From: Clostridia bacterium DTU025
GTDB lineage: Bacteria; Bacillota; DTU025
Direction of reading: 5' to 3'
DNA length: 59,888 nucleotides
Assembly (NCBI GenBank): GCA_001513145.1
Contig: LFSP01000021.1
Span: 79,934 to 139,821 of the forward strand
Below are positions 44,293 to 44,845 of this stretch, one piece after another. Within the stretch, counting starts at the first letter, position 1; every line of letters begins with the position of its first letter. Under the pieces are notes generated by a model. It was not told where the DNA came from, did no database searches, and saw only the letters and a program-made list of their open reading frames with translations. The position numbers and the translations under genes were made by a program.

Positions 44293-44491
44293 GAGGGGAT
44301 TTACCTCTATTCGGAGGAGCACGTTGGGGTGTGCTCCTCCGAATAGAGGAGAGGGACCGCATCTGCTCCTCGAAGGGGCGGAAAACCGCCGGGAAGGGCG
44401 ATGTGGGGATCGGTCGGCACGCGAGTTGCGAGTTGTGGGGCGTGGGCAGCCTGAAAGATCCGTTGGAAAGGCCCAGCTACGCGAATTATGC
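44293..44491 (+). ncRNA. Candidate structured RNA, copy 1
   Basis: About 199 nt. It opens with GAGGGGATTTACCT and a perfect 19-bp hairpin (arms at about 44304-44322 and 44331-44349, core TTCGGAGGAGCAC opposite GTGCTCCTCCGAA). It then has CTGCTCCTCGAA, a GGCGG-AAAA-CCGCC stem-loop, variable sequence, and ends GCGAATTATGC. The conserved blocks are single-stranded or stem positions also found in copy 2. I cannot name an RNA family. A DNA element (miniature transposon) is an alternative, and strand is assumed from the upstream operon. Confidence 0.45.
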
Positions 44492-44533
44492 AGGTATGAT
44501 GTGTTGAGCGGATAAGAGTGCCGCACGATTCAA

Positions 44534-44731
44534 GAGGGGGTATTCCTCTCTTTGGAGGAGCACATGGGGGTGTGCTCCTCCGAATGGAGGCACGGGACGG
44601 CACCTGCTCCTCGAAACGGAGGAAAACCGCCGGGGTGCGTGGCCGGATGGTCGCCCAGTGGGTGAGTCGTGGCTTGCGGCATGCGGGCGACCCAAAGAGA
44701 CTATCGAAAGCTCAAGCTAAGCAAATTATGC
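44534..44731 (+). ncRNA. Candidate structured RNA, copy 2
   Basis: Second copy, offset by 241 nt at the start and 240 nt at the end. GAGGGGGTATTCCT opens it, a long hairpin follows (GGAGGAGCAC ... GTGCTCCTCC with some wobble or mismatch in the lower stem), then CTGCTCCTCGAAACGG, GGAAAACCGCCGGGG, a variable part and GCAAATTATGC. Sequence differs between copies in the middle, while the hairpin core, the AAAACCGCC block and the AATTATGC end are kept. Confidence 0.45.
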
Positions 44732-44845
44732 GGTTGCCGGGCGTCGCAGGAATCGGGCAGAAAGAACAGGCGGCGCTGAGCGCCGCCTTCATCATCAAGA
44801 GGTTGGAGAGTTCGGGGACGCGACATTGCCGGCCATGGAGCCCTA

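Follow-up and report, generated by a model that had tools for sequence, protein, structure and literature searches.

Phased palindrome-and-box arrays between genes of a clostridial genome and its relatives: candidate docking sites for a DNA-binding complex

What are the two similar stretches that follow mtnA in the window (the whole 59,888 nucleotides of DNA analysed here): a structured RNA, a piece linked to a transposon, or a set of sites on the DNA itself? The preliminary description took them for tandem copies of a structured element of about 200 nt. Both copies are present, at 44293-44393 and 44534-44634, offset by 241 and 84% identical over 101 nt, and copy 1 has the perfect 19-bp inverted repeat ascribed to it (arms 44304-44322 and 44331-44349). 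On inspection of the sequence, CTGCTCCTCGAA, GGAAAACCGCC and AATTATGC each occur in both copies, where they had been placed, and no convincing gene overlaps them, as had been said. Copy 1 folds more strongly than its shuffles (z −6.3 and −5.5 on the two strands) and copy 2 more weakly than copy 1 (z −3.0). The structure is smaller than the size given to it: what is structured is a palindromic block of about 87 nt, here called H, and the remainder of the unit is spacer, which is unstructured, constant in length and conserved in a single box.

Anatomy of the unit and its family in this genome

Each unit runs in the order H, about 86 nt of variable sequence, box, about 66 nt, and then the next H. 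The H block is close to palindromic and carries three CCTCC-N4-GGAGG sites (P1, P2 and P3), which have half-sites of alternating direction and are separated by GGAGGAGCA...TGCTCCTCC; the box reads AAAGnCCCAGCTA, with the consensus cAAAGnccCAGcTAga.G. In unit 1 after mtnA, the H block (44299..44395, + strand; nhmmer/model match, L027:6233 onwards) holds P1 (CCTCT-ATTC-GGAGG, 44304..44317), assigned by geometry and also the 5' half of the 19-bp inverted repeat, then P2 (CCTCC-GAAT-AGAGG, 44336..44349), 32 bp past P1 and with an N4 reverse-complementary to the one in P1, and P3 (CCTCG-AAGG-GGCGG, 44368..44381), a further 32 bp on. Its box, AAAGGCCCAGCTA (44467..44479, +), lies 102 bp past P3 and is followed directly by AATTATGC (44484..44491, +), a sequence for which several arrays have a similar TTRTGC tail. 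The H block of unit 2 (44540..44636, +; L027:6474 onwards) begins with P1 (CCTCT-CTTT-GGAGG, 44545..44558) 75 bp past box 1, and geometry places P2 (CCTCC-GAAT-GGAGG) at 44577..44590 and P3 (CCTCG-AAAC-GGAGG) at 44609..44622. About 102 bp past this P3 is a degenerate box, AAAGCTCAAGCTA (44707..44719, +), again with AATTATGC behind it (44724..44731, +); no third H block follows the degenerate box in the window, and the region closes with a GC-rich, terminator-like hairpin, GGCGGCGCTGAGCGCCGCC then TTCATCATC (44769..44787, +).

In L147 and L149, hairpins nearly identical to this last one precede the box. More broadly, a terminator-like hairpin, GGCGGCGCC..GGCGCCGCC, stands just before the box in L146, L147, L148 and L149 and, in the window, behind unit 2, and the arrays of a related genome, G004, have a different hairpin just after the box.

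The pair makes up two of about 41 copies of the H block in its own genome. A blast search with one copy matched the window's own assembly 21 times, and an iterated profile search together with a model of H (97 nt) built from sequence alone gave 75 two-strand matches, which amount to those 41 or so distinct blocks at 14 places on 14 contigs (C6, C9, C13, C24, C32, C33, C35, C36, C40, C44, C46 and C51, and, near the contig starts, C5 and C21). Contig C33 probably has one additional, degenerate array (L277), and placement is otherwise at most one array per contig, each with one to five H blocks. Nine of the 11 exact matches to AAAGNYCCAGSTA in the genome fall inside arrays. All of the genomes compared are draft assemblies with gaps inside arrays, and several contigs end inside arrays.

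Sequence and length behave very differently in the spacers. Compared between arrays, the columns of the spacers carry little more information than random ones (on average 0.41 and 0.35 bits vs 0.28) except at the box and the spacer edges; spacers of separate arrays cannot be aligned, and identity is high within arrays and low between them. Measured centre to centre, the geometry is P-32-P-32-P-101/102-box-75/76-P in every measurable unit but two, and those two deviate at a single distance each: P3-to-box is 91 instead of 101 in unit 2 of L025, and box-to-P1 is 85 instead of 75 in unit 3 of L024. Correspondingly, of the 27 units measured, 25 are 239-242 bp long, one is 230 and one 250. We rejected a coding function, having seen no conserved frame; with lengths that differ by single bases (239-242), successive units fall out of frame with one another.

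Helical phasing in three genera and the ymxH locus

Counts of the P-31/32-P pattern are 42 in this genome, 23 in G004 and at most one in each of 198 other genomes, as in the control (0-1); we consider the single matches in other members of the phylum to be chance, along with weak R1 matches in G010 and G028. Searching 60 relatives by blastn with one copy returned nothing outside this genome, and the arrays of G004 were detected only with the sequence model of H. A search across the relatives for pairs of boxes added only G001, the UBA5389 genome that had also been reached through locus L029 and whose type of repeat is confined to it, not being seen even in G005 of the same genus.

These two genomes keep the architecture with other sequences and other lengths. 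In G004, of the same family and a different genus, the triple palindrome has a spacing of 31 and a P3-to-box distance of 91, box-to-P1 is mostly 96, 97 or 107, and the periods are 249 and 260; one unit of 193 bp, at the end of a contig, departs from the phasing. G001 has the same box and a different, single long palindrome. There the arm from box to H is always 132-133 bp, the arm from H to box takes values of 107/108 (107.5), 97, 86 and, in a 208-bp unit, 75.5, and units measure 208, 219, 229-230 or 239-241. The box is thus common to all three genera and the palindromes are lineage-specific. When distances that span N gaps were excluded, the variable arm took seven distinct values, from 75.5 to 138 bp, and these followed a period of 10.4 bp (R 0.98, reached in 0 of 20,000 simulations), with 2 of 20,000 for the arms of G001 alone and 13 of 20,000 for the six classes of unit length; these are tests on few length classes, noticed before testing and pooled over three genomes. 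The value of 97 bp was entered for this genome too, where the deviating distance belongs to the other arm (P3-to-box 91); G001 has 97 as well, and the pooled set stays as it is. Near its variable arm G001 has sub-repeats of 10-11 nt (CATGCGGTCGG), which are a slippage route to length steps of about 10 bp.

Some further features of these sequences deserve mention. One G001 array (L161:4691-4740) has the box itself three times at a 20-nt period (CCAGCTACGAGACGCGAGCC). The H block of G001 starts with TTATGT(T/A/C)AACC (L158:195-210, L029:6424-6497 and other arrays), which we take to be close to the XerD half-site of dif; a matching XerC arm is not evident in it, and the H blocks of G004 and this genome lack such a start. 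The stretches GGAGGAGCAC/TAGCTGGGG presumably resemble part of 23S rRNA by chance.

In this genome, arrays occupy the gap from a gene's end to its neighbour's promoter or 3' end. The sites include those between a wecB-type epimerase and murA, ftsY and ylxM-ffh, efp and spoIIIAA, ymxH and the next gene, mtnA and its convergent neighbour, and a convergent pair of polysaccharide deacetylase and GH18 genes, among others; the L026 array probably lies between divergent genes. In all seven box-bearing arrays between co-directional genes of this genome, the box is on the gene strand. At L024, a frame of MATE or polysaccharide-exporter type (L024:6344-7888, − strand) runs about 180 nt into the array, so that this array starts inside the gene or right at its end.

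The locus after ymxH is a place shared by all three genera: there is an array in this genome (L143), in G004 (L152) and in G001, where contig C55 starts 18 nt past the ymxH stop, inside H-like sequence, and contig C121 starts in the array and continues into the next orthologous genes (L159). The region after ymxH has no array in G002, G003, G005, G006 and G008. The simplest reading is a shared ancestral array with losses, to which repeated targeting of the site is an alternative. In G004 and G001 the box at this locus is opposite in strand to the genes. The box is built around AGCT and is nearly palindromic; read in the direction of the genes, G001 and this genome then have matching long and short arms (about 133 and 107). 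A conserved protein of about 175 aa is encoded after ymxH (L143:4305-4985, −; L152:5874-6404, +; L224-L228); it has a C-terminal motif like VYQLETAEGTLVANDHLVH and the look of a stand-alone domain of intein or Hint type, with no match in Pfam. At ftsY, only this genome has an array, and G004 carries another gene there; in G005 the ftsY-ylxM intergenic stretch is unusually long (about 900 nt, L232:2425-3340), and no tandem repeat was found in it.

RNA, mobile DNA, satellite or docking array

The preliminary description leaned towards an RNA, and part of that case holds: the element is real, repeated and conserved, its hairpin block covaries, and it lies outside the known RNA families, since a search of Rfam 15 gave no match at gathering score over the copies. 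Sub-threshold matches there were chance or generic hairpins, and elsewhere in the window the search found only a tRNA. What does not hold is a folded RNA of about 200 nt. The H block folds strongly (mean z −5.2), but the spacers of about 150 nt fold as shuffled sequence does (mean z −0.31 on the box strand and 0.03 on the other), and we therefore rejected a folded RNA of about 240 nt as the main reading. Within H, P1:P2 and P2:P3 are mutually exclusive long pairings. Compensatory changes, which had been proposed as a check, were sought across the copies and are present in both pairings: 0 of 500 shuffles reach the covariation score, and slid controls are exceeded as well. The short hairpins within single P sites show no covariation across the copies because their half-sites are nearly invariant, as is expected of recognition sites. 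In 10 of 23 H blocks, neighbouring P sites have fully complementary N4 loops, vs 3.1% across arrays, and together with the long-pairing covariation this is the signature of a true hairpin. Among imperfect pairs on the box strand, G-U outnumbers A-C by 61 to 36, a weak hint of RNA. The covariation is to be read with the caveat that copies within one array are not independent. Template-switch correction of quasi-palindromes is an established mechanism, and it can create the same covariation at the level of DNA.

If the arrays act as RNA, they would be 3' UTRs in which H folds into the P1:P2 or the P2:P3 19-bp hairpin and terminates, stabilises or processes transcripts, with the box as a protein- or RNA-binding motif. 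The covariation and the G-U excess speak for this, as do the position of arrays downstream of co-directional genes with the box on the gene strand and the terminator-like hairpins ahead of some boxes. We nonetheless hold it to be unlikely: the spacer is unstructured and unconserved, yet fixed in length, steps of whole helical turns are meaningless for a single-stranded RNA, both strands fold strongly, the box strand at ymxH is opposite to the genes in G004 and G001, Rfam has no match, and the covariation could also arise at the level of DNA. Since the spacer is most of the unit, is unfolded, and keeps its length to ±1 bp or whole helical turns, DNA geometry fits better than RNA; the hairpins may matter, as RNA or as cruciforms, and the spacer points to DNA.

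The suggested link to a transposon fared worse. Non-autonomous, MITE-like elements would have H as palindromic ends and the box as a cleavage or joining site, with tandems arising when a copy inserts into an H block or when H blocks recombine. Copies are indeed dispersed, most of them have H at either end and boxes inside, location and H sequence turn over fast between genera, and the MATE-type frame continues into one array. Against this, the plasmid, phage and viral-contig collections held no match to the arrays, on which ground we rejected a known mobile element, and the REP-type Y1 transposase (PF01797), present in G001 and some relatives, was not found in this genome or G004. An array in the same gene neighbourhood in three genera makes a recent insertion element unlikely at ymxH, all the more with H sequences that differ, and the saturation of spacers between arrays indicates that the copies are old; an origin as MITEs is accordingly improbable. 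Still less credible to us is a neutral, satellite-like DNA, in which quasi-palindromes seed tandem duplication, ectopic conversion spreads the units and template-switch correction keeps the hairpin arms matched. Such a process would suit the high identity within and low identity between arrays, the perfect pairing by either P1:P2 or P2:P3 within one H, and the contigs that end in arrays, as repeats often cause. Near-random spacers should then show many small indels, however, and what is seen is 25 of 27 units at 239-242 bp with the other two off by 10, and a box kept in three genera within an otherwise free spacer.

Drift of sequence under a length held to helical phase is to be expected of a protein-DNA complex with several sites, and this favours a docking array. 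Judging from sequence and spacing, we lean somewhat towards the mtnA pair being one of about 14 extragenic arrays that serve as docking arrays for a putative DNA-binding complex. Each unit has three palindromic sites, set three helical turns apart, and a box in constant helical phase with the sites to either side. A putative protein or complex would bind palindromes and box along one face of the helix, and the bound complex would wrap, loop or bridge the unit. If the complex spans the unit in this way, then only the phase between sites would be under selection. Less certainly, its job might be architectural or topological, for example as a strong site for a DNA-wrapping or DNA-bridging factor at the 3' ends of genes. 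The loop complementarity and the covariation of the long pairings go beyond what site recognition alone predicts and count against the docking array, as do the box strand at ymxH in G004 and G001, the 193-bp unit of G004 and the non-significant GC periodicity around the box.

Tentatively, and with less than even confidence, we would go further and propose an undescribed class of chromosomal site, in which dispersed, phased palindrome-plus-box arrays might serve a single bacterial family as genome-organising or insulator-like stations for a dedicated, fast-evolving complex, the site sequence turning over across the genome while the geometry and at least one location are conserved. In the openly accessible literature, which our search covered, we found no description of such arrays. 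Helical phasing is rarely read from sequence evolution, as it is here from free sequence and length steps of about 10.5 bp, and it allows the structure of a nucleoprotein in an uncultured lineage to be predicted strongly and testably. Should a dedicated protein come to light, the few chromosome-scale sites known in bacteria would gain a new kind, and the differences of H between genera under a constant architecture would be explained; if the arrays prove to be RNA or mobile DNA, their strict geometry will still need explaining.

Comparison with known systems

Like CRISPR arrays, these have partly palindromic repeats at regular spacing, but their unit is about 240 bp, the repeat block about 87 nt, the spacers are alike within an array and the loci number 14, so direct repeats of 24-48 nt with unique spacers are not what was found. 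A closer formal likeness is to res sites and to attP arms with their core, which combine several palindromic binding sites at helical spacing with a short core, much as the palindromic sites here stand at helical spacing around a short box. Unlike these, the arrays are tandem at many loci, and no linked recombinase gene was seen.

Gyrase prefers BIME-2 and a phased motif of 130 bp, a degenerate pattern with a GC periodicity of 10.75 bp (PMC6379681). The arrays share with strong gyrase sites (the Mu SGS, BIME-2) that they are long, helically phased and often extragenic (PMC6379681), and they differ in conserving specific palindromes and a box. A first signal of gyrase-type GC periodicity was driven by conserved columns at the edges of the box and H and went when these were left out; around the box, the periodicity is not significant, being matched in 132 of 2000 shuffles. 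Gyrase is one candidate partner.

BIMEs and the REP sequences that compose them are extragenic, lie in gaps between co-directional or convergent genes, have alternating inverted half-sites capable of forming hairpins, and are lineage-specific (PMC2817692, PMC3733652). The arrays are likewise intergenic, with alternating CCTCC/GGAGG half-sites. They differ in that a REP-associated tyrosine transposase (RAYT) is missing here and in G004, for which reason we rejected a REP/RAYT system, in that the aligned H blocks are without a conserved tag of GTAG/CGTC type, such as marks one end of a REP palindrome of 20-40 nt, in having about 41 H blocks here rather than hundreds, and in the extra conserved box. 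Segments between REPs vary substantially in length in BIMEs (PMC2817692), whereas the distances between palindromes here are fixed to ±1 bp or change by whole helical turns. The missing Y1 transposase and these fixed lengths together set the arrays apart from the BIME family; the job that the arrays do may nevertheless, with less certainty, be comparable in place and general form to that of the BIMEs of E. coli.
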